Shown here piece by piece: positions 142 through 58,318 of a stretch of 58,318 nt of DNA. The notes beneath the pieces are model-generated. The model searched no databases and had not been told where the DNA came from. It saw only the letters and a program-made list of their open reading frames with translations. How positions within the stretch are numbered: the first letter of the stretch is position 1; every line of letters starts with the position of its first letter. This stretch comes from a virus: IMG/VR virus record IMGVR_UViG_3300021373_000362, positions 1-58,318 of that record; one strand, written 5' to 3'. Made by a program: the position numbers and the translations under genes.

Positions 142-331
142 CTGATACCAGTTCCAGCCTCCGCGTTGCGCCTCGCTTCATGCCTCGTTTTGCGGGGCGG
201 GTTGATACCAGTTGTGGCTGCCGCGTTGCGGGTCGCACAGCGTGGCACGTTAGCGTGTGGCCAGTGTGATTTGTTATAACACGTGTTATAACTTTTTGTT
301 GATACCAGTTGTGGCTATCGCGTTGCGCCTC
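142..331 (+). repeat. Three copies of a ~33-bp GATACCAGTT repeat
   Basis: Imperfect copies start near 142, 202 and 299. Each begins TGATACCAGTT, continues through a variable GGCT-like core and ends CGCGTTGCG followed by CTC or GTC. The contig ends fall inside the first copy. The 11-mer TGATACCAGTT alone also occurs at 7754-7764, between two genes, and at 16558-16568 inside the primase gene. The repeats sit in the leader between the terminator and the first operator, so a role in replication, packaging or partition is possible. The sequence does not decide between these. Confidence 0.75.
273..292. promoter_or_regulatory. Operator palindrome site 1 (GTTATAAC-n4-GTTATAAC)
   Basis: Two 8-bp self-complementary blocks GTTATAAC are separated by ACGT, giving a perfect 20-bp palindrome. 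This copy stands in the leader, about 465 bases before the sigma-70 promoter at 758 and not immediately before any gene. Five related sites occur in the window. Confidence 0.85.
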
Positions 332-839: not shown

Positions 840-893
840 ACAAAAAGTTATAACACATGTTATAACAAACCAATCGGAGCAATACAGTTATGA
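840..893 (+). repeat. 54-bp operator-leader, copy A of an exact direct repeat
   Basis: Bases 840-893 are identical to 1071-1124. The unit holds the palindrome, a conserved spacer, the Shine-Dalgarno CGGAGC, an AT-rich gap and the start codon of the following gene (ATGA). The two copies bracket the 64-aa gene at 890-1084 with a period of 231 bases. Confidence 0.95.
847..866. promoter_or_regulatory. Operator palindrome site 2
   Basis: GTTATAAC-ACAT-GTTATAAC lies 24 bases before the ATG at 890 and about 55 bases after the predicted start of transcription from the 758 promoter. Its position inside the transcribed leader allows a DNA operator, an internal -10-like promoter element (TATAAC) or an RNA hairpin with an 8-bp stem and 4-base loop. 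Confidence 0.85.
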
Positions 894-1084
894 GCGAAGC
901 ACTGAGGCACGCGGAGATTCACCACCAGAGCAAGGTGCGTGAGATAGTTGGTAAGCAGACCCGCGAGTTGAAAGAGATGTCCCTTGTACTTAAAAGTGCA
1001 GTCGTTGCATTGCACAAGGGCAAAGCAGATGTTGTAGACGCGCTATTGGAGCAGGTCATATACGACATAAACAAAAAGTTATAA
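890..1084 (+). CDS. Small early protein of unknown function, bracketed by exact 54-bp repeats
   Basis: The product is 64 aa, charged and predicted mostly helical, with no membrane segment or recognisable motif. The start ATG at 890 is set by the CGGAGC Shine-Dalgarno in the conserved operator-leader. The stop TAA at 1082-1084 lies inside the next operator, so the gene plus one leader forms a 231-bp unit between identical repeats. It is the first gene after the strong promoter at 758. The arrangement looks like a gene captured by duplication of the control element, or one that can be lost by recombination between the repeats. I do not recognise the family. Confidence 0.75.
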   Translation: MSEALRHAEIHHQSKVREIVGKQTRELKEMSLVLKSAVVALHKGKADVVDALLEQVIYDINKKL

Positions 1085-1124
1085 CACATGTTATAACAAA
1101 CCAATCGGAGCAATACAGTTATGA
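1071..1124 (+). repeat. 54-bp operator-leader, copy B of an exact direct repeat
   Basis: It is identical to 840-893. It supplies the operator, Shine-Dalgarno and start codon for the 303-aa gene at 1121, and its first bases encode the end of the 64-aa gene. Confidence 0.95.
1078..1097. promoter_or_regulatory. Operator palindrome site 3
   Basis: GTTATAAC-ACAT-GTTATAAC lies 24 bases before the ATG at 1121 and contains the stop codon of the upstream gene. Confidence 0.85.
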
Positions 1125-2032
1125 ACAATCTAAATCAAATGGCAGTAACAACAGCACCACAGGCAAGCGCACCATCAATCGGATCGAGTGCCATGTTGGG
1201 CGAGTTGAAGATCAGTTGTTGGACTGGGCGCAAGAAAGACAAGTCAGCGTCCGCATCGGTGACTAACCAGAACCGTGCCGATAACGGTACGGCATCAGTC
1301 AATAAGAAGTTACTAGGTAACTGCGACGAGTTGACCGCCATACAGAAATTCGTGGCCAACGCACGCAACATCCACTACAGCATGACAATGCCGTGGAGCG
1401 ATCTGGGTATGCGACTGCTACCGACCGCGCAGTACTTCAAGTACCACCAACAGATGACCGAGTTGCAAAGCGAGTTCGAGCGCATGGTCGATACGTTCTG
1501 TAACAACTACACGTGGGAGGTGAGCAGGGCACAGGCACGGATCGGTAGTTTGTTTCGAGCCGATGACTACCCGACCGAGGCGTCGATACGTAGCAAGTTC
1601 GCGTTCAACATCTCGTACATACCGCTCCCCGAGGCCGGTGACTTTCGTGTGGACGTGGGCAACGAGCAACGTGACGTGTTGGAGTCACACTATAACGAGT
1701 ACTATCGCAAGCAGTTGGATTCCGCGATGGGTGACGTGTGGGATCGTACGTACAAGGCACTGTCTAACATGTCCGAGCGACTAGACTACGGGGGCGACGA
1801 CAAGAAGAAAGTATTCCGCGACTCGCTAGTGGAGAACGTGCTCGACATGGTAGAACTGCTTAACGTGTGTAACGTATCAGGTGACAGCCAGATGTCCGAG
1901 ATGGCGCGTAAGCTAGACGATACGCTACGCGGGGTCACTCCCGATGGGTTGCGCAACAACGAGTCTTTCCGTGCCGAAACCAAACGGGCAGTGGACGATG
2001 CCATCAAGTCACTACCATCGTTGGGGATGTGA
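1121..2032 (+). CDS. DUF3150-like protein, first member of an AAA+/VWA gene trio
   Basis: The protein is 303 aa, soluble, with no signal peptide or membrane segment. It has a charged N-terminal segment containing SCWTGRKKDKS and a long, mainly helical body. The overall look and the gene order resemble the DUF3150-type proteins encoded beside a MoxR-like ATPase and a VWA protein in phages and bacteria; this match is by memory and moderate. The start at 1121 follows the conserved operator-leader and its CGGAGC Shine-Dalgarno. It is followed at once by a 62-aa gene and then by the AAA+ ATPase (2277) and VWA protein (3358). It may be the adaptor or substrate-recognition part of that module. The biochemical role is unknown. 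Confidence 0.7.
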   Translation: MNNLNQMAVTTAPQASAPSIGSSAMLGELKISCWTGRKKDKSASASVTNQNRADNGTASVNKKLLGNCDELTAIQKFVANARNIHYSMTMPWSDLGMRLLPTAQYFKYHQQMTELQSEFERMVDTFCNNYTWEVSRAQARIGSLFRADDYPTEASIRSKFAFNISYIPLPEAGDFRVDVGNEQRDVLESHYNEYYRKQLDSAMGDVWDRTYKALSNMSERLDYGGDDKKKVFRDSLVENVLDMVELLNVCNVSGDSQMSEMARKLDDTLRGVTPDGLRNNESFRAETKRAVDDAIKSLPSLGM

Positions 2033-2033
2033 T

Positions 2034-2222
2034 ATGTATTACGTTGAAGCCTATGACTCAAACGACCGTCAGATACTGGGAAACCTTGACGGGCAAGCGG
2101 TGCTACGTGTGCGCAACTACAAGCGCACCAAGCACTACAAGAACCTACGCACGCTACGTACGCACCGCGTGTCGTATTACAAAATCGTGGCCGTTGATGG
2201 CCGCATTGTTGAAACGCTGTAA
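2034..2222 (+). CDS. Small basic protein between the DUF3150-like and AAA+ genes
   Basis: The product is 62 aa, rich in Arg, Lys and Tyr, and possibly a small beta fold (MYYVEAYDSNDR at the start). The ATG at 2034 follows the TGA of the previous gene by one base, so translation is probably coupled, with a weak purine-rich GGGGATGTG in place of a clear Shine-Dalgarno. The frame is open further upstream, but that would overlap the 303-aa gene. The family is not recognised. Confidence 0.65.
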   Translation: MYYVEAYDSNDRQILGNLDGQAVLRVRNYKRTKHYKNLRTLRTHRVSYYKIVAVDGRIVETL

Positions 2223-2233
2223 CTAAACTAAAA

Positions 2234-2253
2234 GTTATAACCTGTGTTATAAC
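2234..2253. promoter_or_regulatory. Operator palindrome site 4
   Basis: GTTATAAC-CTGT-GTTATAAC stands before the AAA+ ATPase. The spacer is the most divergent of the six, but both 8-bp blocks are intact. The conserved leader follows as AACAAAACAATTGGAGCAAT, with the ATG at 2277. Confidence 0.85.
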
Positions 2254-2276
2254 AAAACAATTGGAGCAATACTATT

Positions 2277-3347
2277 ATGAACACACAAGCTATGTACGCA
2301 TTATCGCTAGACCAAATCGCCAACGCTATCGCTACTGTTGGCCACCAACGCACCATACTCGTACAGGGTCACATGGGTAACGGTAAGTCATCACTGCTTA
2401 ATACGTTAGCAGATAGATTCCCTACCCACACGCCATGCTACTTCGACTGTACGACCAAGGACTTGGGTGATCTGAGCATACCATCACTCAATACCGAGCA
2501 AGGGTACGTGACATACCTACCCAATGAGGAGTTGGGGTTGCATCTCGACAAGCCGGTCATACTAATGATCGACGAGTACGGCAAGGCGAATCCATCAGTC
2601 AAGAACGCGTTACTGCGTGACATGTTGGAGCGCAACCGATTCCCCGACGGCAGTATCATATTCGCTACGACCAACCTAGGCGCAGAGGGTGTGGGCGATC
2701 TGCTACCACCACACGCACGCAATCGCATCACAGTGGTCACAGCACGCAAGTCTACCAGTGACGAGTTTATCGACTGGGGTATCAGCAACGGTGTCGATCA
2801 CAGTGTGCTCGGTTTCGTGCGCGAGTTCCCGCAGGTGTTGCAAGGATTCGAGGACGTGAAGAACCCCGATGACAACCCGTACATCTTCCATCCCAAACAA
2901 CAGCGTGCCGCGTTTATCACCCCAAGATCATTGGAGGCCGCGAGTGACGTGCTCAAGTTACGCGATCAGTATGACGATCACACCCTAACAGCTTTACTTA
3001 TGGGTACTATCGGCGATCGTGGTGCTATGGATATGATGGCGTTTGTGAAGTTGGCCGACCAACTACCGAGTCTACAGTCTATCAAGGACGATCCGCTCAA
3101 TGCCAAAGTACCCGAGTCAGCGTCAGCCGTGTGCATGACAGTGTTCCGTGCTATGGGCGCGATGCAACGCGACTGGGTAGATGCGTGGGTGACGTACATG
3201 CAACGTCTCGACAAGGAGGCGCAAGGTCTGTTCGCCAATGGCATACGTGCTAACTCGTATGCGCACCGCGATGTTGTGATGCAGAGTAAGATGTTCACCG
3301 AGTGGGCTATGCAGAACAACTACATGTTTGCAAGTGACAAGGTATAG
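2277..3347 (+). CDS. MoxR-type AAA+ ATPase
   Basis: This 356-aa cytoplasmic ATPase has Walker A GHMGNGKSS at residues 31-39, Walker B VILMIDEYGK at 94-103 with D99 and E100, a sensor-1 Asn in FATTN (about 133) and Arg residues near 148-150 suited to an arginine finger. It is of the MoxR/CobS group, which form hexameric rings and work with a VWA-domain partner to remodel or activate a target or to insert metal. Here the VWA protein is the next gene, whose likely start lies 10 bases after this stop. The start ATG at 2277 follows operator site 4 and its TTGGAGC Shine-Dalgarno. The target is unknown. Confidence 0.92.
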   Translation: MNTQAMYALSLDQIANAIATVGHQRTILVQGHMGNGKSSLLNTLADRFPTHTPCYFDCTTKDLGDLSIPSLNTEQGYVTYLPNEELGLHLDKPVILMIDEYGKANPSVKNALLRDMLERNRFPDGSIIFATTNLGAEGVGDLLPPHARNRITVVTARKSTSDEFIDWGISNGVDHSVLGFVREFPQVLQGFEDVKNPDDNPYIFHPKQQRAAFITPRSLEAASDVLKLRDQYDDHTLTALLMGTIGDRGAMDMMAFVKLADQLPSLQSIKDDPLNAKVPESASAVCMTVFRAMGAMQRDWVDAWVTYMQRLDKEAQGLFANGIRANSYAHRDVVMQSKMFTEWAMQNNYMFASDKV

Positions 3348-3357
3348 GAGAGGGATT

Positions 3358-4620
3358 ATGTTGACTATAGGTAAACAACTTACTGCGGAGGAGCGACTGT
3401 CTAAGGCAGTCGTTGCCATCATGGGACACCCGAGATACACAGCACTAGCAGGTGTGTTGATGATCGGGGAGAAAACTATCGAGGACGACATACCGACAGC
3501 GTGTACCAACGGGCGTGATGTGAAGTACGGACGTGCATTCGTTGACGGACTGACCGATGCCCAATTGCGTGGGCTAGTACTGCACGAGGACGAGGGGCAC
3601 AAGCTACACCGTCACCTTGAGATATGGAAGTGGATGTATGACATTGACCCACACCTAGCTAACTGCGCGTGTGACTACGTTATCAACATCAAGATCGTCG
3701 ATGACAACAAGGAAGATGGGTTCGCCGAACTACCCGAGGGTGGGTTAGTCGATGAGCGGTTCCGTGGTATGGACAGCGCACAGGTGTTCAACATCCTACG
3801 CAAGGAGCAGGAGGAGCAGGAGGAGCAGTCGCAAAACGATCAGGGTGATGGCTCACAGGGTAACGAGTCAGGAGGTGATGGTGAACCTTCCAGCTCCCCG
3901 GGGGGCGATGGCGCAGGATTCGATGAGCATGACTGGGAGGGTGCGCAGTCTCTATCCGACGAGGACAAGCGTGAGTTGGCGCGTGACATTGACGAGGCTA
4001 TCCGTCAGGGTGCCATGGCCGCAGGCAAGATGGGTGGTACAGGCAACCGCGATCTCGACGAGTTACTACAGCCACAGGTTGATTGGCGTGAGGTGCTACG
4101 TGAGTTCATTCAGAATACGTGTGCAGGTAACGACTACTCTACATACGCCCGACCCAATCGCAGGTTGATGAGTCAGGGTATCATCATGCCTAGCGGTATC
4201 AGTGAGCAGGTGGGTGAGTTGGTCATTGCCATTGACACGTCAGGCTCTGTCGGACAACAAGAGTTGACAGCGTTTCTGTCTGAGGTCAAGGGTGTGTGCG
4301 ACACAGTCAAACCTGACAAGCTACGCCTACTGTACTGGGGTAGCAATGTTGTGGGTGACGAGGCATACGACATGCACGAGTTAGACAATCTGGTCAAGTC
4401 TACCAAGCCTATGGGTGGTGGTGGTACCGATGTCAACTGCGTTACGCAGTACATGACCGACGAGGGTATCAAGCCTCAAGCGTGTATCGTTCTGACCGAT
4501 GGCCACTTGTACTCTGGTTGGGGTGACTGGACTTGCCCTGTACTCTGGGCGATACTGGATAACAGAGACGCCGTGCCCGATGAGGGTAAGGCAGTACACA
4601 TCAAATCGAGGGACATGTAA
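3358..4620 (+). CDS. VWA-domain protein with a metallopeptidase-like N-terminal domain, partner of the AAA+ ATPase
   Basis: The protein is 420 aa from the ATG at 3358, which has a good TAGGAGAGGG Shine-Dalgarno; an upstream in-frame ATG at 3328 lies inside the ATPase gene and is less likely. The N-terminal domain resembles the DUF2201-type putative peptidase, with HEDEGHKLHRH at 76-86. The His-Glu-His spacing is HExxxH instead of HExxH, so activity is doubtful. A Glu/Gln- and Gly/Ser-rich acidic linker spans about 148-200. The C-terminal VWA domain has the MIDAS residues DTSGS (293-297), Thr357 in GGTD and Asp381 in LTDGH. In known pairs the VWA subunit links the ATPase ring to its substrate. 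Confidence 0.88.
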   Translation: MLTIGKQLTAEERLSKAVVAIMGHPRYTALAGVLMIGEKTIEDDIPTACTNGRDVKYGRAFVDGLTDAQLRGLVLHEDEGHKLHRHLEIWKWMYDIDPHLANCACDYVINIKIVDDNKEDGFAELPEGGLVDERFRGMDSAQVFNILRKEQEEQEEQSQNDQGDGSQGNESGGDGEPSSSPGGDGAGFDEHDWEGAQSLSDEDKRELARDIDEAIRQGAMAAGKMGGTGNRDLDELLQPQVDWREVLREFIQNTCAGNDYSTYARPNRRLMSQGIIMPSGISEQVGELVIAIDTSGSVGQQELTAFLSEVKGVCDTVKPDKLRLLYWGSNVVGDEAYDMHELDNLVKSTKPMGGGGTDVNCVTQYMTDEGIKPQACIVLTDGHLYSGWGDWTCPVLWAILDNRDAVPDEGKAVHIKSRDM

Positions 4621-4907
4621 TGGCGGCACGACTGATACAGTTTGTAGGTTCACACCCTGACTTGGTTACAGGACATATGTATACCGCGAGGGACTACGCG
4701 AAGGTTGCGAACATCAAACCAAGTTCTATGGCTACTAGGCTACATAGGGTGTTCGAGGTGCATGAATCACATCTGCGTCCTATGCACCAAAACTATGACT
4801 ACGAGGGCAAGGCTATCAACAGGTCAGCAGATCGCCCGTTGAAGAGTTCTTTCGAGACATATGCAGAGAAGTTATCAGGTGAATGGTTAAACAGGAGATT
4901 GGTATGA
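4620..4907 (+). CDS. Hypothetical protein after the VWA gene
   Basis: The product is 95 aa, basic and soluble. The ATG at 4620 overlaps the stop of the VWA gene by one base (TAATG), so it is translationally coupled and part of the same transcript. The N-terminal half (SMATRLHRVFEV region, residues about 35-47) could be a winged-helix fragment, but no motif is decisive. Confidence 0.65.
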   Translation: MAARLIQFVGSHPDLVTGHMYTARDYAKVANIKPSSMATRLHRVFEVHESHLRPMHQNYDYEGKAINRSADRPLKSSFETYAEKLSGEWLNRRLV

Positions 4908-5116
4908 GTGATACTAAATACGGGGAAGCATCGACAGATTGCCTCCGATCAACTGCGGATGAATTACGTATGGAGTGGGCAGAGGCTGTCAACACTGTGG
5001 ACGAGGCATTGGAGTTCTACTATGACCACGTTAGGGATACACCAGTGGACAGTGACTATGACCGCAATGACGTGGGGACAGTGCAACGTGCGTGGCAACG
5101 CGTACAACAGGGGTAA
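4904..5116 (+). CDS. Small acidic hypothetical protein
   Basis: The product is 70 aa, acidic and helical. The start ATG at 4904 overlaps the previous stop (ATGA) and follows AGGAGATT. The frame is open back to 4883, but that start would have no Shine-Dalgarno. No family is recognised; it is probably a phage-specific early accessory gene. Confidence 0.65.
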   Translation: MSDTKYGEASTDCLRSTADELRMEWAEAVNTVDEALEFYYDHVRDTPVDSDYDRNDVGTVQRAWQRVQQG

Positions 5117-5119
5117 GTT

Positions 5120-5239
5120 ATGGACTATAGAAAGAGAGAAAGTACCATCTATAAGGTGTTCACTGTAGGCGTAATAATAGCCTACTTTATGGTAAGCGAA
5201 ATAGCCTACGTGGAGTGTATGACCCTAGGCATATGTTAA
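5120..5239 (+). CDS. Small single-span membrane protein
   Basis: The product is 39 aa: a charged N-terminus (MDYRKREST), then a hydrophobic stretch VFTVGVIIAYFMVSEIAYV and a short tail with two cysteines. The ATG at 5120 follows CAGGGGTAAGTT three bases after the previous stop. The size and one membrane segment fit an early phage inner-membrane peptide. Its function is unknown. Confidence 0.5.
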   Translation: MDYRKRESTIYKVFTVGVIIAYFMVSEIAYVECMTLGIC

Positions 5240-5249
5240 TTAACTAAAA

Positions 5250-5269
5250 GTTATAACACGTGTTATAAC
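5250..5269. promoter_or_regulatory. Operator palindrome site 5
   Basis: GTTATAAC-ACGT-GTTATAAC is followed by the conserved leader (AACAAAACAACTCGGAGCAA) and the ATG at 5291. Confidence 0.85.
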
Positions 5270-5290
5270 AAAACAACTCGGAGCAATATT

Positions 5291-6160
5291 ATGGCTATGT
5301 ATAATTATGGGCTAGACAGTTTCACGCACGTGGAGCATTTGTATAACAACACCAAACCAATCAGGGGTAGCAACATAGTACCGTTGGGTGACCGTAGACG
5401 TAAGTGGGAGTGCATCATCAAGGTGTCCCCACACCAGTACGTGTTATCAGATTACGGGGAGCATCAGCAACATGCCACTGCCGCAGTGGTCTGGACTCGC
5501 AATGCCGATGGCACTGACACAGTAGAATTTAACAATGAGTCAGGTAACTATGCACACAATAGCAGGTATTCTTTCCTAGAAAGATGTATGCCTTATGATA
5601 TGAGGTTTACCGTAGAAAGTGGCAAGCAGTACGTGCGTTATGATGGCAACCGCTACTACCTACCCAAGGAGCAAAACAAACCTGTAGTGTTTACCAGTGC
5701 TAAACAGAATCCGGTCTCTGACTACCGGCATAGTACGGTATGGACACTTACCAGTGACGTACACCCCGTGCCTGTCACACGTGTACGTGTTAACAAAGAA
5801 GCCAAGGCACCGTATAAGAAAGCTATCGACGAGTACCTGCATTGGTCGTGGACTATGGCTCCAATACTCGAGGGCACTATGAGTTGGGAGACAGATGGCA
5901 AGGTACTTAGAGAAGCGGCTTACATGGGGCATGGAGAGTTCTGTGACATGTTGGAAGACGAGCAACACGAGAAACGTACGACGATGTTGCACGCGTTCCT
6001 TATCCAGTTATCTCGCACGTTAGGTAATAGGAGTTGGGCACAGGAGGCGTATGTCCCGCTAACAAGTGACCCTAAGAAGTTCCGTAGTAAGTTTAACTCG
6101 TGGGTGAACAATATGGGTGGGTTCAATGACCAGTTTGAAGAATTAAGGGGAGGGAAATAA
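5291..6160 (+). CDS. Hypothetical early protein under an operator-leader
   Basis: The protein is 289 aa, soluble and rich in aromatic residues, with no detectable signal peptide, membrane segment or catalytic motif. The ATG at 5291 is fixed by CTCGGAGC in the fourth copy of the operator-leader, which places this gene in the same control group as the DUF3150-like and AAA+ genes. The next gene begins two bases after its stop, so the two are co-transcribed. Function is unknown; the shared control element makes a role linked to the AAA+/VWA module a reasonable guess. Confidence 0.75.
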   Translation: MAMYNYGLDSFTHVEHLYNNTKPIRGSNIVPLGDRRRKWECIIKVSPHQYVLSDYGEHQQHATAAVVWTRNADGTDTVEFNNESGNYAHNSRYSFLERCMPYDMRFTVESGKQYVRYDGNRYYLPKEQNKPVVFTSAKQNPVSDYRHSTVWTLTSDVHPVPVTRVRVNKEAKAPYKKAIDEYLHWSWTMAPILEGTMSWETDGKVLREAAYMGHGEFCDMLEDEQHEKRTTMLHAFLIQLSRTLGNRSWAQEAYVPLTSDPKKFRSKFNSWVNNMGGFNDQFEELRGGK

Positions 6161-6161
6161 C

Positions 6162-7088
6162 ATGTCAATGTATGCTTATGACGACGAAGGTAAGTTTGTT
6201 ATACACAGTGTCGAGGACGCTTCGCAGTGTCCGAGTGCAAGTGATGGGGATGGTAGCGAGTACCGTACGGAAGTTCTATGGTTCGCAGATGCAGTGCGTA
6301 AGGCATTTAGGGGTTGTGAGGTACGTCCTGATAGTTACAGACATGGCGATCCAATGTTTCACGTTTTCATGCCAGAAGATTTATTTACGATGGGGTGGAT
6401 AACTGTAACCTTCAACCATGATAAAGAGGCTCTGGAGTACATAGTATATAGTAGGGACATCACCAATAACAAATATACAAATTACTCCATAGAGTTCCGT
6501 TGTAAGGTTACTACTAGGAAAGATGTCGCTATCAGAAATGCTAAGAAGTACCTACGTAGGTTTTCACCTGTAGAGGTGATAAATGGCACAGTAAGAAAAT
6601 GTGAACGCGCCATAACCGATAAGTATGGGGACTACGTGATGGCATTGGATAACAAGTGGCGTAGTCTGTTCCATGCCGATTGGAACGATTCCAGAGAGGC
6701 ATCTTGTAAGGCCATGCTATCCGAGATGTACATGCTTATGGACTCGGGGCATGAGTTTATGGACAAGGAGTTACCGGAAAAGCTGACACAATTACGTGAT
6801 GCTAAGGCAGAGAAAGAGCAGGCATATAAGGATAAGAAACTGCCTATGTATTCGGTACGTGTGTACGAGAGGTTAGGTAAGCAAGCGTTCGATGTATGCG
6901 CTATACCCGATATAGGGGACACTCATTCACACAGGTTCAAGGATAACTTTGAGAGTTTTACTTATTACGAAGATTTGCCTGAAGATATACTCGGTAAACT
7001 GTCCACGTTGTCAATATGTGACATAGACACTTATGTACCAAGGGTAGGTTATCGCTATAGCGAAGGCATGTTCTATGTCACGCAGTGA
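6162..7088 (+). CDS. Hypothetical early protein
   Basis: The protein is 308 aa, soluble, acidic at the N-terminus and with a charged helical segment around residues 200-230 (KLTQLRDAKAEKEQAYKDKK). The ATG at 6162 follows AAGGGGAGGG. It is downstream of operator site 5 in one transcript with the 289-aa gene. I do not recognise the family and see no catalytic motif. Confidence 0.72.
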   Translation: MSMYAYDDEGKFVIHSVEDASQCPSASDGDGSEYRTEVLWFADAVRKAFRGCEVRPDSYRHGDPMFHVFMPEDLFTMGWITVTFNHDKEALEYIVYSRDITNNKYTNYSIEFRCKVTTRKDVAIRNAKKYLRRFSPVEVINGTVRKCERAITDKYGDYVMALDNKWRSLFHADWNDSREASCKAMLSEMYMLMDSGHEFMDKELPEKLTQLRDAKAEKEQAYKDKKLPMYSVRVYERLGKQAFDVCAIPDIGDTHSHRFKDNFESFTYYEDLPEDILGKLSTLSICDIDTYVPRVGYRYSEGMFYVTQ

Positions 7089-7353
7089 CACGATATGGGA
7101 CGATCCGACAGATATGCCTAACGCCTATCGCGTTTCTACGCTGGGATACACCAACAGTATCGAGGTAACGTGTTTAGGTATGAATTGTGTTGACGCGGAG
7201 TGCGAGGGGTTATATGATCTTGATGGAGATGTACCGAAGTGGCTTGAAGAGAGGCTTTCGGTTCTCCTGTTATGTGACCCTACGCCGCCCACTGAACCTG
7301 TAGAGGGTATTGGTAGGCGTATAGATGAACACACGTTTTGGGTATTTAAATAG
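7075..7353 (+). CDS. Small acidic hypothetical protein overlapping its neighbour
   Basis: The product is 92 aa, acidic, with three cysteines. The ATG at 7075 lies 14 bases inside the end of the 308-aa gene, in another frame, which suggests coupling. No motif is seen. It is the last gene of the operator-marked early block. Confidence 0.6.
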   Translation: MSRSDTIWDDPTDMPNAYRVSTLGYTNSIEVTCLGMNCVDAECEGLYDLDGDVPKWLEERLSVLLLCDPTPPTEPVEGIGRRIDEHTFWVFK

Positions 7354-7381: not shown

Positions 7382-7756
7382 ATGAAACTTAAAATTGCAG
7401 TAATGTTAATTATGGCTTGCGCTTACTCGGCTCAGAGTCATGCCGCGTGTACCTACAAGAAAGATGCTTGGGGTAACACTAAGTACCATTGCGACAGTGG
7501 GCAGAGTGGTACGTTACGTACCGATGCTTGGGGTAATACCCGCGACTCTGGTACTGGGCTTACATACAGAAAGGATGCATGGGGTAACACCCGTAGTAGT
7601 GATGGTACTACTTACCGTACCGATGCGTGGGGCAACCTGCGGGGTAGTGATGGTACTACCGCAAGGAAAGATGCTTGGGGTAACACGATCATAACCAACG
7701 GTAGCACTACAACTAAATGCCGCACTAATGCTTGGGGCAACGTAGTTTGTAACTGA
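7382..7756 (+). CDS. Secreted DAWGN-repeat protein
   Basis: The product is 124 aa. The N-terminus is a classical Sec signal: MKLK, a hydrophobic core IAVMLIMACAY, and a probable cleavage after SHA at about residue 21. The mature part is six repeats of about 16 residues centred on (K/T)(D/N)AWGN, separated by Gly/Ser/Thr-rich turns, with cysteines near the ends that could form disulphides. Such regular short repeats suggest a small beta-rich repeat fold in the periplasm or at the cell surface. It differs from its neighbours in having a signal peptide and may derive from a host gene. A surface or superinfection-exclusion role is possible but not shown. The gene starts at 7382 after TAGGATG and stands between early unknown genes and the VRR-NUC gene. 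Confidence 0.8.
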   Translation: MKLKIAVMLIMACAYSAQSHAACTYKKDAWGNTKYHCDSGQSGTLRTDAWGNTRDSGTGLTYRKDAWGNTRSSDGTTYRTDAWGNLRGSDGTTARKDAWGNTIITNGSTTTKCRTNAWGNVVCN

Positions 7757-19061: not shown

Positions 19062-22000
19062 TTAATACCCTTTGTTGTACTCCATGTTACTAACCATTAT
19101 CGCGTGTTGCATCAGCGGGTTTATAGTAACTCCATTGTGCATCTTGGCTGACGTAGCCATGTGCGATTTAACTGACTTGCTTATCTGCTCAGGAGTTACA
19201 GCTACAGTAGGATGTCGGTTGTTATGAGCTATTATATCCTTTAGTACTTCCCCCATAGTTTCGTGGTCGCCCATCCGCTGTGCAATGTAGAACTTCTTAG
19301 TGAGCATAGACCGCTTAGAAGTAATGGCTTTTTCTACTCCTTTGTTCCGTGCAGATATTTCTTGGCGGTACGTATATTCCGCAGGAGGGAATCCGAAAGC
19401 CTGCGCCGCAAAATCTCCTACAGTCATGTCATCGTAGATGGGGTCTTTCCTGCGAGATTGTATACCACCTTCCCTCGCGTAACGCCCTACGGTGCTACGG
19501 TACAAATTAGTAATACCGGCAGGCATAAGGTTCTCCATACCACGTTCAAAGCTACCGTACTCGCTTGAGTTGAAGTCATCGTATGCACGCTTGAGTCTAG
19601 TGCCTGTACTTAATGCAGGGCCACCTAGATAGAATCCTAGGCTCTCTTCGAGAGATGGGTCTTTGTTAAACCTGTTTTCCTGCAACACTAGGTTACTTAA
19701 ACTTACACGTGAGGCTACATCCGTACCTGTTAGCGCGGTGACTGCACCTTTGTACCAACCTTCACCTAAGTATTTACGTGTTATGGTGCGAGCATCGTCC
19801 TCTTCATCATCCAAGAACATGTCAGCTATCATAGTGACTGCGCCATATAGCGGAAGCCCCTGCACCCCAGCAAAGAATAACGCCGACATGTGTATACCCA
19901 ACATCTGTTTAAACGCCATGTTACGTAGTTGCTTACCTTCAGCGTCATTAGCAAACATATTATCTGAAGCTAACTTAGCAGATTTCAGCATGGTGTAGTA
20001 CATCTGTAGGCCGTAACTCTTATACATCAAAGCCACACGCCCGATACCCTGCTGTGAGTACCCTGCCGCAGTCTCTAGTACAGAACCGCCATTGGTTTCC
20101 TGTGCAAAGTATAGGGCTTCTTCTGCCGCTAACTCCATACGCGCTTCGGAACTACTAGGCACGTCTACAAACTTGGCCTGTACCGCACTGTAGAACTTCT
20201 TATCTCCTTCAGCCTTGTGCATAGCATCTAGCTTGTCTAGGTTGAGGTCGTATGACGCGGCTACGGTTGTCTGGCGGTTAAACCTTTCTGCCGCGTTGAA
20301 CATAACAGCAGACAGTGCAGACGTACCATCTAGAAACCTAAGAGCACGGTTCTTGTTCTTTTTACGTCCTACGTCATTCACGCCTAGCTGGTCGGCTATA
20401 GTAGAGTGATGTATCTGTCCACGGTTCTTAGCCATCTTTACTAGGGGTATCATACGATTGAAGTGCTTTATCTTCGCGTCAGCTTCCGCCTTGGTAGCAG
20501 AGGTATCCCGTATTTTCTTCTCTTGAGAAGGTTTTAAGGTGTACACATCATCCCTAGTAACGACTCCGTTAGCATCAGTAGTACTAACTTCTTTAATGTC
20601 GTAGTACTCGTCGATAGATATTTTAGATGCACCTACAAACTTGGACGCCCTACCCAAAGCGGCTGTAGATTCCATAGCCCCAAACTTACTTGTTAGGTAT
20701 GGCCCAACTACTAGAGGTATCTGTGACAAGTTAACAAGTGCTGACGAGGCGTTGAAACCAATGGTGTAGATAAAGGCTGTCTGGTTAGCGCGTTGGAAGT
20801 ACGGCTCCGTACCTTTGTTCTTAGCGCCCCTCCGTGCAAAGTCTGCGCGGTTCAGCATTTCATCTCTAACCATACCGAATGTATCTTCGTTAACGCCTTC
20901 AGGAGTACCCTTGTCATACACTTCGTCTATGGCTCTTTCGATCGCACGTATGTCCCCACCATAACGCATCTTCTCTATTTGAGCGCCAAGGTCGTAACCT
21001 TTTACTTGCATACCTAGCCCAGCATCTTGTATGTACCCAAGGGTGTTCTTACGTTTTTGTAGGGACTTAGCGAAAGAAGTTTCTGGGAGAGACTCGATAA
21101 ACAGCCGCATGACTTGCTCTTGCATTTCCGCGTCTTTATCCTGCCCGCTCGCGGATATTACGTCTAATACGTCAGCTACGAAAGAACCTGCGGGAGCACT
21201 CTTCCAACTAGACTTCCTAGTGTCCGCATTATATGACTCTACTGTACCTTCTACAGTGTCGGCGTCATCTTGGACTGTCCTCAAGGCGCTATCCCGCTCT
21301 CCCTTAGTTTCAAACATAAGGAATACTGGTTCTTCTCGTATGTTACCGTTGTCGTCAGCGATGCGAGTAGAGTAAGACAGCTTATAATTACCTTGACGTA
21401 TCAGAGGGAAGTACACATCCATAGTCTTGCTATCTAATAGACGTTCGTTCATCTCTTTCTTTATCTTCGCTTTAGTAGACCTAGGCGTGTTATCACCTAT
21501 TGCATCTATCTCACGGTTAATAACAGCTATAAGGTCTTCGTGCATACGCTTGTATTCTGCACGCAGAGCGGTGAACTGATCCCTACCGCCTTTGTTTAAC
21601 TTCTTCCATTGCTCTTGGTTGGCTTTCCACACTTCAAATAGATTTCTGTCGTCTAGTGCAGTCTGCCCGCTGTATTTCTTTTTAGCTTCCGCCTCGGTAA
21701 GAGTAGGGTCTACCTGATATATAGTAGCGCCGTGTTCTTGGCTGTAGATAATGTTATCTAATAACTGCTTCTGCTCTACGTTCTTCTTGGCCCACTTGTT
21801 GTAAGCCTCCAAGACATTTTCTATCTTACCGTCCGCTCTTGCGATAGCCCCTCGCTGTTCCTCGAACTTGGCGTGTAGCTTTATGCCTAACTGACCAAAC
21901 CCATTGTTTCTGGCCACATCGCCCAGTGCTTGAGAACCCGTTAACTTGAGAAAGACTTCTTTAGCTGTACCTTTAACACCGCTGTTTAAGAAGTCCGTAG

Positions 22001-25000
22001 CACCCTCAATGAAAGATCGCTTGGAGCCAGTAGACACGCGCTTTTGGATGTCCGTCATGTCGTCCATTACTTTTCTAACACCGTCTTGGGTAGACACCAT
22101 GTTCATCGCGGGCGCGTCTATGGTATTAATGTTAGGTGACAGCATGGTGAGTATAGCCGCGTCAGCGGAATCCAGTGCAGAACCTACAGGCTTGGTGTCC
22201 ATACCGATAAGTCTTCGTACAAAATTAGTAACTGCACGGTAGAATCGCTCTAGGGCGCTGATGTCTTGGCCTTTCGGGTTTATAGATGCTAGCTTGTGTT
22301 GGAAGTCGGGATTACTAAACGCCTCAGCGACAAACTCGTTAAGGTTCTTTGCGCCGTAAGCTGTGTCTAAGTACGGCTTAACGTCTTCGTACAAATTGTT
22401 TAACTGCTTAGTTGCTGGGTGTGACTTGTTCTTCAGCACGTTAATAGTGGCCGCGTGCGTAGTCTCATGCAGTAAAGCATGTATGGTCAGGGGCATATTC
22501 GAGTTAAGTATTACGGTGTTGATCTTAGGATCAAACAAACCTGCAACGTCACTTCTGTCCCCAATGTCGTAGCCTTTGTCTTTTATAGCGGCCTCATTAG
22601 CCAATTCTATCTTGGTGTCCCCTGTGTTTTCAGCCAATGCCCTAGCTATCTGCTTCACGCGTTTACTCTTAGCACTCTTAGCAAGGGACTGCAATGCGCC
22701 TTTTAAATCACCTTTCTTCAACAACGCGCTAACGTCTTTAGGCAAACGCTCCATAGCCTCGACAGTTACCTTGGGGTCTAGTTCCAAGTTAAGTATGTCA
22801 ATTTTACCGCCGCCCGCTAGGAAGTTTACCGTGTCAGCCGCTACCCTTGCCGATACTTGTGCGGGGGACATATCTTCAGTAAGAGGTGGTTTGGTAGCGG
22901 TCTTGGCCTTACCCTGTACTTTCTCTACGGCTTCGGCAACGGTCGCCAGTTCTTGTTCTTTCTTACTTAGCTTTCGTTGTGCCCTAGGAGTCTCTTCGAC
23001 TACTTTCTCGGCTTTCTTTTTAGGTTTCTTGCGGTCTGGAGTTACCTGTACCTTACCCTTACTAGCTTCTTCTATCTTCTTATTTCTTGATTCTTCTTGA
23101 CGCGCCTTCCTATCTTCTACTAGTTGGGCTTCTGCCGCTTTAGTACTGCGCTCGTCAATAGTTTTTTGAGCCGCAGTTGCTCTTTCTTTAGCGACTTGCA
23201 GTTGCCTATCTAGCTGGGCGTTAGTTTCTGCACTAAGATTGTCTTTAGCCCACGATAATACCGCTTGAGCATTGGCTCCGCCTGTACCCTGTAAGTTTTC
23301 TGCGAGGGGGTCTACACCTGTAGGTAGCGTACCGCTAGGCTTAGTCTCTTTTGCCTCGTCATAGGTTCTATACTTTTTGCTCTGAGGATCACCCGCTTCG
23401 CTAACAGCGTTGATAAGTGCATCAGCAGGAGTGTCGAACTGATTCAGGTATTTTTGCACTACTTTAGCTTGCGCCTGCGCTTCTTTTGCTCCTTCGGTAA
23501 GGTCTTTACGAACCTGTCTTGGGAAAGTTGTGCCCTTTAACGTCTCTAACTTCGCTGTATCTTGATCCAGTGCAGGGTGACGACCTATAAACTGGTCGCT
23601 TTTGCTAAACCTAAACTTGTTTGTGTCTGGGTTAATAGTACGTACAGGAGGAGCAGTCTTTGCCGCAGGAGCCTCGGTAGTGCTAGAGGGAGTAAACCCG
23701 ACCGCTTCCAACTTCTTCTGCATGTCTGTCTTCGGCTTCGGTTTTGCTTCTACTTTGGGCGGCTTACCCATTAGGGTCGCCATGGCGGTTTCTACTAATG
23801 CACCACGCTTAGTTCTTTCTCCTGCTCTAGTAGGGCTAGTGCCTTCGACAGGGCTGTCCAATCCTGCAACGTCAGTTGGTGCAGTATCTCTGGCACCTTC
23901 AGGGGTCTCTCTCCCTGCCACGACTGCTGGACTATCTTGAACGCTGTCTCTACCTCTTCCTGTGTCAACTGCTGTAGTAAGTCCACTTTCGTCTCCAGTT
24001 TCGATAGCACGGCGGGTCACGCCTTGTCTCTTGGCGGCGGTCTTACTCTGCATACCACCTAGAGGTTGCTGTTGCTGAGTTTGTTTAGGCGTACGCTCCT
24101 TAACTTGTGCTTCTAACTGCGCTAGTGCCGCTCTGTTTTCGGTTGCTATGGCGGCATCTCTAGCCTCTGCCTCTGCAACATCTAGGGTACCTTCAAATAG
24201 TACGGCGTATTCCTGCTCTATAGCACGTTTTTCTTCTGCGTCTCTAGCCGCCTGAGCTTCGTCTTCTGCTAACAAGGCTTCGACTTCAGCCGTCTCTTGC
24301 ATGTCCCGTAGCTGCTCTTCTTCTGCACGAGCTACCATGTCAGGTTGTTCAGATATAGCTTCTTGATCCGCCGCTTCTGCCGCTTTCTTACGCTCTCGCG
24401 CTATCTTTTTGCGTCCGTACCCAGCTAAGATTTGTTCTGCTAGTTCTACATCTTCCGCAGAACTATTTTCATCAGCTATTACGGCCTCTAGCTCCGCAAG
24501 CTCGGCGTCTTCTAGTTCAGCCGGAAATAAATCTTCTTGGGTGTCTTTGCGTTTGTCTCTGGCCTCTTGTTGGCGGCGCTCAAACTCAGCTTGAGTACGT
24601 CTATCACGCACGTCTGCACTGGGCATGTCTCCCAAGGCTATTTGAGCTTCTGCTTCCTGCTCTCTTCTAGCTTCGTCTCGCGCTCTACTAGCTTCTTCTT
24701 GTTGCGCACGCGTGCCAGCTTCTCCGGTAGGGCTGACTACTATATCATCGGATGGCGCGGGAAGTAGCCCTGCGATTTCTACAGCTTCTTCGTCAGTTAT
24801 GTCAGGAGCTTCGCCACCATCAGTAGTGCGAGCACGCCCCCTAACAAGTACGTCTGTAAGCGCCTGTAGTATGGCACCTGCACCGCCGCCTATGGTAGCT
24901 TCATCGAGCACACCGGCATTGAGTAGTTCTGCTTCGGGATCATACCCACGAGCGTTAAGGTTTTGTAATATTGCGGCGGCGGCTTCCTGTGCGCCTTCAG

Positions 25001-25634
25001 TTACGCCGGTAGCTGCGGCACTACGCACACGACTGCCTATGCCTGATATGGCTTGTGGGCCAAGTTTATCTAGTACTTTTTGTACGCCGGGAATCTGAAG
25101 TCCCTTGGCAATTCTACCTAGGGGAGCGATCTCAGTCAGGCCGATAGCGGTACCACGGAGGGCGGCGGCACTTCTTTCTTCCTCGGTAGCACCAAACTCT
25201 CTTGCGCGTTCACTTGCCTCACCTGCACCTGCACCACCAGCAATAACACCCGCAGCAGGTAATGCAGCAGGGCCGAGCAGTGCGGTGGGTAGCAGTGCGC
25301 CTATAGAACCAATGCCAGAAGCTAGCTTATAGGATAGGGCTTCTTTGTCTCCACCTTCGGGACGGAAAGACTCGGCCACACGCTTTATCTTGTCACGTGC
25401 TTTGAGTTCTTCTTCCTCTTCCAATAAGGTAGCGCCACCAAGAGCGGCAGACTCGTACATACCAACGGCACCAGCACCAAGTCCTGATAACACGTTCTCA
25501 ACAAAACCTGCGTCACCACTACCTTGTTTTGCTACTTCTTGGCGTAGCATTAACGTAAGTTCTTGTACAACCTCGTACTCGCCATCTTTGTATGCTAGGT
25601 CAATAGCTTTTGATAGCTGTTCGATAGAAGCCAT
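19062..25634 (-). CDS. Giant internal-virion polyvalent protein with a HETTH zinc-peptidase motif
   Basis: The protein is 2190 aa, the largest in the window. The N-terminal 260 residues contain Ala/Gly-rich hydrophobic stretches. A very long charged region (about 310-700) rich in Glu, Ala, Arg and Gln should be coiled coil. At about 1056-1060 lies HETTH in LLHETTHAAT, a metzincin or gluzincin-like zinc motif. The C-terminal ~700 residues are helical and resemble the large polyvalent-protein-associated (LPD38-like) domains of phage proteins that enter the cell with DNA. It is the distal gene of the late transcript. By size and place it is analogous to T7 gp16 or P22 ejection proteins. A role in injection or host modification is inferred. 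Confidence 0.8.
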   Translation of the reverse strand: MASIEQLSKAIDLAYKDGEYEVVQELTLMLRQEVAKQGSGDAGFVENVLSGLGAGAVGMYESAALGGATLLEEEEELKARDKIKRVAESFRPEGGDKEALSYKLASGIGSIGALLPTALLGPAALPAAGVIAGGAGAGEASERAREFGATEEERSAAALRGTAIGLTEIAPLGRIAKGLQIPGVQKVLDKLGPQAISGIGSRVRSAAATGVTEGAQEAAAAILQNLNARGYDPEAELLNAGVLDEATIGGGAGAILQALTDVLVRGRARTTDGGEAPDITDEEAVEIAGLLPAPSDDIVVSPTGEAGTRAQQEEASRARDEARREQEAEAQIALGDMPSADVRDRRTQAEFERRQQEARDKRKDTQEDLFPAELEDAELAELEAVIADENSSAEDVELAEQILAGYGRKKIARERKKAAEAADQEAISEQPDMVARAEEEQLRDMQETAEVEALLAEDEAQAARDAEEKRAIEQEYAVLFEGTLDVAEAEARDAAIATENRAALAQLEAQVKERTPKQTQQQQPLGGMQSKTAAKRQGVTRRAIETGDESGLTTAVDTGRGRDSVQDSPAVVAGRETPEGARDTAPTDVAGLDSPVEGTSPTRAGERTKRGALVETAMATLMGKPPKVEAKPKPKTDMQKKLEAVGFTPSSTTEAPAAKTAPPVRTINPDTNKFRFSKSDQFIGRHPALDQDTAKLETLKGTTFPRQVRKDLTEGAKEAQAQAKVVQKYLNQFDTPADALINAVSEAGDPQSKKYRTYDEAKETKPSGTLPTGVDPLAENLQGTGGANAQAVLSWAKDNLSAETNAQLDRQLQVAKERATAAQKTIDERSTKAAEAQLVEDRKARQEESRNKKIEEASKGKVQVTPDRKKPKKKAEKVVEETPRAQRKLSKKEQELATVAEAVEKVQGKAKTATKPPLTEDMSPAQVSARVAADTVNFLAGGGKIDILNLELDPKVTVEAMERLPKDVSALLKKGDLKGALQSLAKSAKSKRVKQIARALAENTGDTKIELANEAAIKDKGYDIGDRSDVAGLFDPKINTVILNSNMPLTIHALLHETTHAATINVLKNKSHPATKQLNNLYEDVKPYLDTAYGAKNLNEFVAEAFSNPDFQHKLASINPKGQDISALERFYRAVTNFVRRLIGMDTKPVGSALDSADAAILTMLSPNINTIDAPAMNMVSTQDGVRKVMDDMTDIQKRVSTGSKRSFIEGATDFLNSGVKGTAKEVFLKLTGSQALGDVARNNGFGQLGIKLHAKFEEQRGAIARADGKIENVLEAYNKWAKKNVEQKQLLDNIIYSQEHGATIYQVDPTLTEAEAKKKYSGQTALDDRNLFEVWKANQEQWKKLNKGGRDQFTALRAEYKRMHEDLIAVINREIDAIGDNTPRSTKAKIKKEMNERLLDSKTMDVYFPLIRQGNYKLSYSTRIADDNGNIREEPVFLMFETKGERDSALRTVQDDADTVEGTVESYNADTRKSSWKSAPAGSFVADVLDVISASGQDKDAEMQEQVMRLFIESLPETSFAKSLQKRKNTLGYIQDAGLGMQVKGYDLGAQIEKMRYGGDIRAIERAIDEVYDKGTPEGVNEDTFGMVRDEMLNRADFARRGAKNKGTEPYFQRANQTAFIYTIGFNASSALVNLSQIPLVVGPYLTSKFGAMESTAALGRASKFVGASKISIDEYYDIKEVSTTDANGVVTRDDVYTLKPSQEKKIRDTSATKAEADAKIKHFNRMIPLVKMAKNRGQIHHSTIADQLGVNDVGRKKNKNRALRFLDGTSALSAVMFNAAERFNRQTTVAASYDLNLDKLDAMHKAEGDKKFYSAVQAKFVDVPSSSEARMELAAEEALYFAQETNGGSVLETAAGYSQQGIGRVALMYKSYGLQMYYTMLKSAKLASDNMFANDAEGKQLRNMAFKQMLGIHMSALFFAGVQGLPLYGAVTMIADMFLDDEEDDARTITRKYLGEGWYKGAVTALTGTDVASRVSLSNLVLQENRFNKDPSLEESLGFYLGGPALSTGTRLKRAYDDFNSSEYGSFERGMENLMPAGITNLYRSTVGRYAREGGIQSRRKDPIYDDMTVGDFAAQAFGFPPAEYTYRQEISARNKGVEKAITSKRSMLTKKFYIAQRMGDHETMGEVLKDIIAHNNRHPTVAVTPEQISKSVKSHMATSAKMHNGVTINPLMQHAIMVSNMEYNKGY

Positions 25635-56976: not shown

Positions 56977-56996
56977 GTTATAACATATGTTATAAC
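56977..56996. promoter_or_regulatory. Operator palindrome site 6
   Basis: GTTATAAC-ATAT-GTTATAAC lies in the divergent region, 15 bases before the -35 element at 57012. It can act on both the late - strand and early + strand transcripts. Confidence 0.85.
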
Positions 56997-57121: not shown

Positions 57122-57709
57122 ATGAAAAATGTAAATGAAGCAAAAGCAATCCCGAGCCGATTCACCCCCGAAGTAGAGAAAGCGATTACTGGTCTGACTA
57201 AAGGGTCTGAAGCCCTAGGGCTTAAAACAGTGACCGCGATCGATACGCTGAGAGCGGCGGGGATCAAGTCCACTGATTTTATCAGCCCTAAAACTGAAGG
57301 ATCAACAGCAACACCAGAGCTGAACGATGCGTTCAAGGCGGCGATTGTTAAGGGATTCTCAGCGGCCAAGCGCAAACTACTGGCCGCCCCTGCTAAGTCG
57401 CTGTCTGACAGTGATAAGGCCGATCGTAAGAAGGCTCAACAGTCTATCGGTGCATATATGGCCGCGTTCAAGCGCGATCTATTTGCAAGGGAGCCGGAAG
57501 GGATAGCCAAGGCCAAGGCCAAGAAGGAAGCCGGTAGGGCGGCACAACAACCTACTGGCCAAGCCAAGGCGGCAGGATCAGCGGCTAAGGTGCTCGAGTC
57601 ACTGCAACAGGCGGCCAAGCGGGCGCAGGCAATTGAAGAGCCTGATTTCGATGTAGTCGAATTGGTTAACCTGCTAGCTAAGGCTCAGCAGATTGTAGTC
57701 AAACATTAA
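57122..57709 (+). CDS. Early hypothetical protein, Ala/Lys-rich
   Basis: The protein is 195 aa from the ATG at 57122; the TTG at 57065 would add 19 residues but has no Shine-Dalgarno. It is mainly helical, with a Lys/Ala-rich linker about 140-165 and a C-terminal helix. It is the first gene after the divergent promoter, so it is expressed early. I do not recognise the family. Confidence 0.7.
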   Translation: MKNVNEAKAIPSRFTPEVEKAITGLTKGSEALGLKTVTAIDTLRAAGIKSTDFISPKTEGSTATPELNDAFKAAIVKGFSAAKRKLLAAPAKSLSDSDKADRKKAQQSIGAYMAAFKRDLFAREPEGIAKAKAKKEAGRAAQQPTGQAKAAGSAAKVLESLQQAAKRAQAIEEPDFDVVELVNLLAKAQQIVVKH

Positions 57710-58042: not shown

Positions 58043-58248
58043 AAAATCAAAAATTGTTAAATCTGCTACAAGCCGACGCGGTTGACTACTATCTCCGCCA
58101 AGGGCACTCAATTGAGACCGCCCGATTTCTGGCCACCTATAAACATGTTGAACATACTGCTGAGACAGTCGATGCCGATTGGCTAGCAATAGAGCAGGGC
58201 ACGTTTGGAAACCGCCAACATGCAATCCACGGCCTTGATCCTTTTTAA
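58039..58248 (+). CDS. 69-aa early protein ending at the terminal repeat
   Basis: The product is 69 aa, helical, with TARFLATYKHVEHTAE in the middle. It overlaps the previous gene by 4 bases (ATGA). Bases 58169-58248 are repeated at the left end of the window, and a terminator follows at 58267. Unknown function. Confidence 0.65.
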   Translation: MKNQKLLNLLQADAVDYYLRQGHSIETARFLATYKHVEHTAETVDADWLAIEQGTFGNRQHAIHGLDPF

Positions 58249-58318
58249 TTCCCCCTTGCAATCCTTGCCCCGCTCCGGCGGGGCTTTTTTTTCGCCCGAG
58301 AAAAATCGCCTGATACCA
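58169..58318. repeat. Terminal direct repeat, right copy
   Basis: It matches bases 1-150 with one difference (C at 58295 for T at 127). See the left copy for interpretation. Confidence 0.95.
58267..58292 (+). terminator. Rho-independent terminator, right copy
   Basis: It is the same GC stem and T-run as 99-124, following the 69-aa gene by 18 bases. On a closed circle the two are one element. Confidence 0.93.

Follow-up and report, generated by a model that had tools for sequence, protein, structure and literature searches.

In Cluster A mycobacteriophages of the L5 clade, a single regulator is served by many dispersed sites that lie in short intergenic spaces after promoters, and immunity groups are set by the regulator and its sites, which change in concert (PMC6550527, PMC9283540). 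Quite separately, the MoxR-vWA ternary systems combine an AAA+ ATPase of the MoxR/midasin clade, a vWA co-chaperone and a dedicated third protein of the VMAP, iSTAND, FtsH or beta-propeller type in one cluster (PMC7159879). Here, we describe a locus with likeness to both: the early gene block of a marine phage, at 847-7353 of the IMG/VR virus record IMGVR_UViG_3300021373_000362, whose 58,318 bases are referred to below as the window. In this block, a trio of genes for a DUF3150-like protein, an AAA+ ATPase and a VWA protein stands behind palindromic operators, which in related phages are replaced in place and co-vary with the gene for a 195-amino-acid (aa) protein, the predicted cognate regulator.

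Adjacent AAA+ and vWA genes are themselves familiar from tailed phages. One study interprets those of tailed viruses as CobST (PMC8651126), in N4 they appear as genes 24 and 25, the core genes 'unknown' and 'vWFA domain' (PMC4193335), and a Bacillus phage has been reported to carry a MoxR pair (PMC2147016). The VWA protein of the window has relatives in 679 annotated phage records. For the locus as a whole, we consider an explanation in two layers probable: a regulator with switching, stoperator-like sites would control the early genes, and the trio among them would form a remodelling machine.

Operators and their predicted regulator

The palindrome GTTATAACN4GTTATAAC is present six times in the window. 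Four copies precede genes of the block, at 847..866 (64-aa gene), 1078..1097 (DUF3150-like gene, 303 aa), 2234..2253 (AAA+ gene) and 5250..5269 (289-aa gene), each about 24 nucleotides (nt) ahead of the start codon. Another copy, GTTATAACACGTGTTATAAC, lies at 273..292 in a non-coding stretch ahead of the block, and the last, GTTATAACATATGTTATAAC, is found at 56977..56996, 125 nt before the regulator gene. The preliminary description of this DNA, made from the sequence by itself, had taken the four block sites for operators of an early block, and this stands: with up to three mismatches allowed, 100 shuffles yielded no copy, none being expected by chance, and the half-site GTTATAAC has no further occurrence in the window beyond the six operators. 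What that description missed about the control of the block was the regulator and the switching of the operators. Terminators were also considered as an identity for the palindromes and dropped.

A sigma-70 promoter of perfect consensus (TTGACA-N16-TATAAT) lies on the plus strand at 758-785, 61 nt before the operator at 847, and a consensus promoter of the same form is found 51-66 nt before an operator in ten relatives with various palindromes. Among closer relatives this promoter does not change. Within the block there is no promoter-like excess over shuffles. That the block forms one controlled transcript, as had been proposed, is an inference.

The regulator gene (57122-57706, plus strand) adjoins the operator at 56977, at the far end of the window as recorded. 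The last 151 bases (58168-58318) repeat positions 1-151 with one difference, as compared by eye. This makes the window circular or terminally redundant, a feature that the preliminary description had missed, and puts everything from 56.9 kb onwards directly upstream of position 1. The nearest relative, G001, confirms this placement, as regulator, operators and 64-aa gene follow one another on a single contig. In 66 loci that have a palindrome family, a homologue of the regulator opens the early block. None was found in annotated phages; MM2_92, the first gene after an operator in the cultured cyanophage MinM2, was tried as a homologue and rejected as not significant.

Among relatives, the palindrome at the same place is replaced by an unrelated one. 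The classes found include TGTATACATATGTATACA, TGTCTACATATGTAGACA, TTAGGTAATTACCTAA, GGTAGTCCRYGGACTACC, GTTAGGGAATTCCCTAAC and GTTAGTGN3CACTAAC, besides others. Each phage record has one main palindrome family, usually in 4-9 copies, and it is this main family that varies among relatives; up to 16 copies (one mismatch) were counted in G020, and more than 10 in MinM2 and some others. In MinM2, the palindrome is GGTTCAGNCTGAACC, which precedes early genes, among them the DUF3150 gene, and mostly lies 20-25 nt ahead of the start codon.

The replacement is sharpest in near-identical pairs. G011 and G012 share 97.4% of their nucleotides over 9.3 kb, and their AAA+ and large terminase (TerL) proteins are 100% identical. 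Every aligned operator (at least six) has nevertheless changed between them, being GGTAGTCCRYGGACTACC in G011 and GTTAGGGAATTCCCTAAC in G012, and around several of the changed operators the DNA is identical over 86-90 nt on one side and 96-99% identical on the other. The regulator is replaced as well, with 15% identity in its N-terminal and 27% in its C-terminal part. Two further stretches do not match, one (about 250 bp) holding a small gene and the other, an insertion of about 890 bp, holding a 311-aa frame. In a second pair, G001 and G002, the AAA+ proteins are 98% and the polymerases 99% identical, yet the operator classes differ; here the regulator has 34% identity in its N-terminal and 91% in its C-terminal part, corresponding to 27-68% nucleotide identity over the first 420 nt and 78-88% over the last 170 nt. 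Over 39 non-redundant loci, with AAA+ and DUF3150 identity removed, similarity of the N-terminal part (about 130 aa) tracks operator similarity with a partial r of 0.46 (p 0.001, the floor of 1000 permutations), whereas that of the C-terminal part (about 60 aa) does not (partial r 0.05, p 0.22). Among pairs with AAA+ identity of at least 90%, identity of the regulator's N-terminal part is 13-38% where operators differ (14 pairs) and 54-100% where they are equal (62 pairs), two ranges that do not overlap. A partial correlation over 13 genomes, with AAA+ and DUF3150 kept out of the baseline, gave p 0.0002 for the N-terminal part.

We propose that the 195-aa protein regulates early genes, probably by repression, through sequence-specific DNA binding; its sites would be the two-fold symmetric palindromes upstream of its own gene and in the early-gene leaders. 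Since the constant, host-type promoter lies about 60 nt upstream of the operator of the trio block, bound protein would act as a stoperator-like roadblock that stops elongating RNA polymerase, and not on initiation. The N-terminal part would set the specificity and be exchanged between phages, with all sites of the genome following, which would lead to immunity-type groups. The swapping of a predicted regulator gene with the operators among near-identical relatives suggests an evolving immunity-type switch that is undescribed for these phages.

How far does the likeness to the L5 clade go? As there, many copies of one site (six here) occupy intergenic spaces of transcribed early regions. The sites themselves differ, L5 sites being asymmetric, oriented and 13 bp long, whereas those found here are palindromes of 16-20 bp. 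Moreover, L5 motifs diverge gradually with genome distance (PMC6550527), in contrast to the wholesale change between near-identical genomes seen here, and no helix-turn-helix family and no integrase were found in our case. Near-identical pairs that differ in regulator, operators and few other stretches occur naturally and make testable the long-standing question of how a regulator and its many scattered sites change specificity jointly, and of what selects for switching when no lysogeny genes are seen. Cultured phage is available for such work, in MinM2 and relatives with the trio and their own palindrome set.

Several observations weigh against this account of the operators. The regulator belongs to no Pfam or PHROG family and has no recognisable helix-turn-helix. 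No tyrosine or serine integrase family was found in the window, which leaves classical lysogeny unsupported. The promoter pattern is not seen in L017, L044, L045 and L046, which comprise the GGTAGTCC contig and some GTTAGGG contigs. G002 and G003, whose sites are of the TGTATAC type, keep one window-type GTTATAAC operator before the 289-aa gene, a mixture that looks like an unfinished switch. The pairs with AAA+ identity of at least 90% are not independent, the same-operator ones coming mostly from one clade and the different-operator ones from an estimated five or so separate switches. Finally, the test over 13 genomes also returned p <0.05 for TerL, the AAA+ protein, a 2190-aa protein and the regulator's C-terminal part, with smaller residuals.

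Could the palindromes act in RNA instead? As hairpins in 5' leaders, bound by a regulator or processed by a nuclease, they would control translation or mRNA stability. Their position just before the ribosome-binding site in a transcribed leader would suit this, as would the central 2-4 nt, which are variable and loop-like in several classes. Off-consensus sites point the other way: arm pairs are broken in 16 cases, compensated in 2 and turned into G-T in 7, and this excess of broken over compensated pairs favours DNA over RNA as the likely operator target. In addition, the centre is mostly fixed and fully palindromic (AATT, ATAT) in several classes, which a loop would not require, and one operator pair falls inside the DUF3150 coding start. 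We therefore consider RNA hairpins an unlikely explanation.

Early promoters of N4 are hairpins, and the palindromes might in the same way be hairpin promoters for an N4-type virion RNA polymerase. The 2190-aa protein, encoded at 19062-25634 on the minus strand, has a weak match to the virion RNA polymerase family (6.7e-9 over 200 aa), and N4-like phages share the AAA+/VWA pair. We regard this as improbable. Many relatives have a constant sigma-70 promoter of consensus form upstream, and the 2190-aa protein resembles, in its C-terminal half, a DarB-like antirestriction family (6.8e-35). Despite a weak trend overall, the protein also does not track operator class where the comparison is decisive: the operator is the same in G002 and G009 but their 2190-aa proteins are only 34% identical, whereas G009 and the window differ in operator at 54% identity. 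Very improbable, lastly, are recombination boundaries between exchangeable gene cassettes, with the link to the 195-aa protein a matter of hitch-hiking: the palindromes do mark gene borders, and exchange is seen for some small genes beside them, but at several sites in G011 and G012 the palindrome changes between flanks that remain nearly or fully identical, which is the reverse of what cassette exchange would give. One family also serves nearly all sites of a genome, and the N-terminal part of the regulator follows operator class over the 39 loci.

The DUF3150, AAA+ and VWA trio

The second layer of the favoured explanation concerns the regulated genes, among which the three proteins of the trio stand out. 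The DUF3150-like protein (1121..2032, plus strand, 303 aa) matches PF11348 over residues 25-178 with 30.2 bits (gathering cut-off 24.9). Its AlphaFold2 model has a predicted local distance difference test score (pLDDT) of 84.8, and resembles no solved structure in the PDB (best E 0.6; best E in a profile search 0.11); no paper naming DUF3150 was found in the literature searched. The AAA+ ATPase (2277..3347, plus strand, 356 aa; PHROG 1297) carries an intact Walker A (GHMGNGKS), Walker B (VILMIDE) and sensor (ATTN), and across the family alignment both Walker motifs are kept, as are sensor 1 and an arginine that follows it. Its family profile matches the AAA module of midasin best (E about 5e-33). 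The VWA protein (3358..4620, plus strand, 420 aa) consists of a predicted metallopeptidase domain, DUF2201_N (93.3 bits, cut-off 23.2), and a MIDAS domain, DUF2201 (54.4 bits, cut-off 26.4). Its MIDAS motif, DTSGS...T...D, is intact, with the MIDAS residues near-invariant across the alignment, and its model (pLDDT 80.5) matches MDN1-MIDAS best (E 2e-5). The intact nucleotide and MIDAS motifs reported for the two proteins in the preliminary description are hence confirmed. The resemblance to midasin (Rea1/MDN1), the best match of both modules by profile and fold, has its limit in the architecture, as midasin unites six AAA modules in a single giant chain, whereas here the modules are separate proteins.

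The HExxH of the predicted metallopeptidase domain, which the preliminary description had missed, is altered to HEDEGH, with one extra residue, in the window (3583-3615, residues 76-86 of the VWA protein) and in three relatives; common to close relatives, the alteration is not a sequencing error, and an HExxH with a further His is not found in the window's VWA protein. In most other phages and many plasmid-type copies the HExxH of DUF2201_N is intact, and in several it is lost or degenerate. Because of these lost or altered copies, classical zinc proteolysis is unlikely to be the common function of the domain. The VWA protein falls in PHROG 1314, whose label is HNH endonuclease, a name found in many phage records, though the protein matches the DUF2201 VWA models.

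The trio first noted in this window is real. Its three genes occur together in phages, namely dozens of marine contigs and one cultured cyanophage, and in bacteria, on plasmids and in genomes of Burkholderiales and others, so that its synteny extends well beyond this genome; a restriction to this genome, which would have refuted the first reading, is not what is seen. IMG/VR contigs that span the region have the order DUF3150-AAA-VWA, and in most of them the 308-aa and 92-aa families come next, then a VRR-NUC gene and DNA polymerase. On plasmids of Simplicispira, Rhodovastum, Paraburkholderia, Robbsia, Variovorax and Cupriavidus the order is AAA-DUF3150-VWA; the genes follow each other in tandem except in Simplicispira, which has small genes between them, and the trio adjoins primase, ParB and type IV secretion genes. 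A plasmid-derived alignment led to 72 genome loci, about 60 of which have all three genes, the exceptions being mainly planctomycete loci, contig ends and fragments; the trio is also together in further genome loci that were checked. For the sampling of genomes, alignment A5 was chosen because PF11348 misses the plasmid versions in whole genomes, and it matched in 4 other genomes among 384 alphaproteobacterial ones and in 0 of 368 other gammaproteobacterial genomes. Given this rarity, the trio is an accessory module carried largely on mobile elements. A Manganitrophus plasmid (L105, 7854-10876) has DUF3150 with a different AAA ATPase, DUF1257 and DUF2997 in place of MoxR/VWA, perhaps a second kind of DUF3150 system.

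Since DUF3150 accompanies the AAA+/VWA pair in phages and plasmids, it is the predicted third subunit. This reverses the earlier statement that no third known subunit is present, and with midasin as best match of the AAA+ profile and the VWA model, a remodelling machine, as in the comparison with MoxR/VWA pairs made alongside it, is likely. Two points count on the other side: the plasmid homologues of DUF3150 escape the Pfam model, and N4-like phages hold the AAA+/VWA pair without an annotated DUF3150 gene in the loci inspected. Like the known MoxR-vWA ternary systems, the locus pairs an AAA+ protein of the MoxR/midasin clade with a MIDAS vWA partner. It differs in that its third protein, DUF3150, falls outside the four types, in its occurrence on phages and plasmids, and in having no effector domain array. 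A named system was not recovered by profile search, as no NCBIfam or PADLOC model fits. The best PADLOC defence match (mad8, 26.3 bits, E 1.2e-6) concerns the ATPase only and part of the profile and is not convincing, and a host defence system was dropped as an identity for the trio.

What, then, would the trio do? By analogy with MoxR-vWA pairs (PMC7159879), it probably remodels a target complex. In such a midasin/MoxR-type remodeller, the AAA+ ring would hydrolyse ATP, the MIDAS domain would grip the target, and DUF3150 would be a dedicated adaptor or client. That phages and plasmids both use the trio suggests a link to host functions encountered at entry or during replication, and the target would likely be a host complex that both meet as they come in. 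The trio may serve host takeover or counter-defence, as the preliminary description proposed. Only tentatively do we go further and picture a new family of DNA-binding regulators without known relatives, acting in phages without integrase, whose palindromic roadblocks, N-terminal switching and site-by-site operator rewriting would create sharp immunity groups inside a single phage population, together with a fifth MoxR-vWA ternary machine, with DUF3150 as its third member, directed against a shared host target.

A metabolic role is another reading that such genes have been given. The AAA+ and VWA proteins would then be a phage CobS and CobT that work with host CobN in cobalamin synthesis, DUF3150 being incidental; this would agree with the interpretation of the tailed-virus pair cited above (PMC8651126) and with cobS and cobT being listed in marine phages (PMC11288001). 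We find it very improbable here. The AAA+ protein scores 12.5 bits against the CobS equivalog model, whose cut-off is 558.55, and its best profile match is midasin; the VWA protein matches DUF2201_N, DUF2201 and VWA only, with no CobT family domain; and plasmids carry the same trio next to genes for primase, ParB and type IV secretion. The check for CobN turned up six large proteins without a Pfam match. The trio adds a predicted third subunit to the AAA+/VWA pair, which many phages carry and which frequently bears the annotation vitamin B12 genes or HNH endonuclease, so some claims of auxiliary metabolism may need correction.

Other genes of the block and the genome

The remaining genes of the block all lie on the plus strand and belong to no family. 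The 64-aa gene (890..1084) is retained only in the nearest relatives; those of 62 aa (2034..2222), 95 aa (4620..4907) and 70 aa (4904..5116) intersperse or follow the trio. The 289-aa (5291..6160) and 308-aa (6162..7088) genes, which the preliminary description had named along with the trio, are in the block as stated but are fast-evolving neighbours of the trio: their proteins drop to 25-35% identity in contigs where the trio keeps at least 52%, and are unrelated to the genes at the same position in MinM2. They were therefore dropped as core subunits. The 92-aa gene (7075..7353) keeps its synteny in most relatives that span the region; an apparent profile match involving the 308-aa and 92-aa families was taken as an overlap artefact.

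Elsewhere in the window, terminase, portal and head genes lie on the minus strand, and the plus strand carries DNA polymerase, helicase and primase after the block. No tRNA was found in the window, and megablast of its first 25 kb against phage records gave no match. TerL is 44-46% identical to that of the pelagiphages HTVC023P and HTVC027P and 41% identical to that of cyanophage MinM2. The 2190-aa protein is only 38% identical in a relative with a 98% identical polymerase. Directly after the block, at 7382-7756, a 124-aa protein with a signal-like start and KDAWGNT/TDAWGN repeats is encoded, which, of eight relatives compared, only the nearest (G001) shares.

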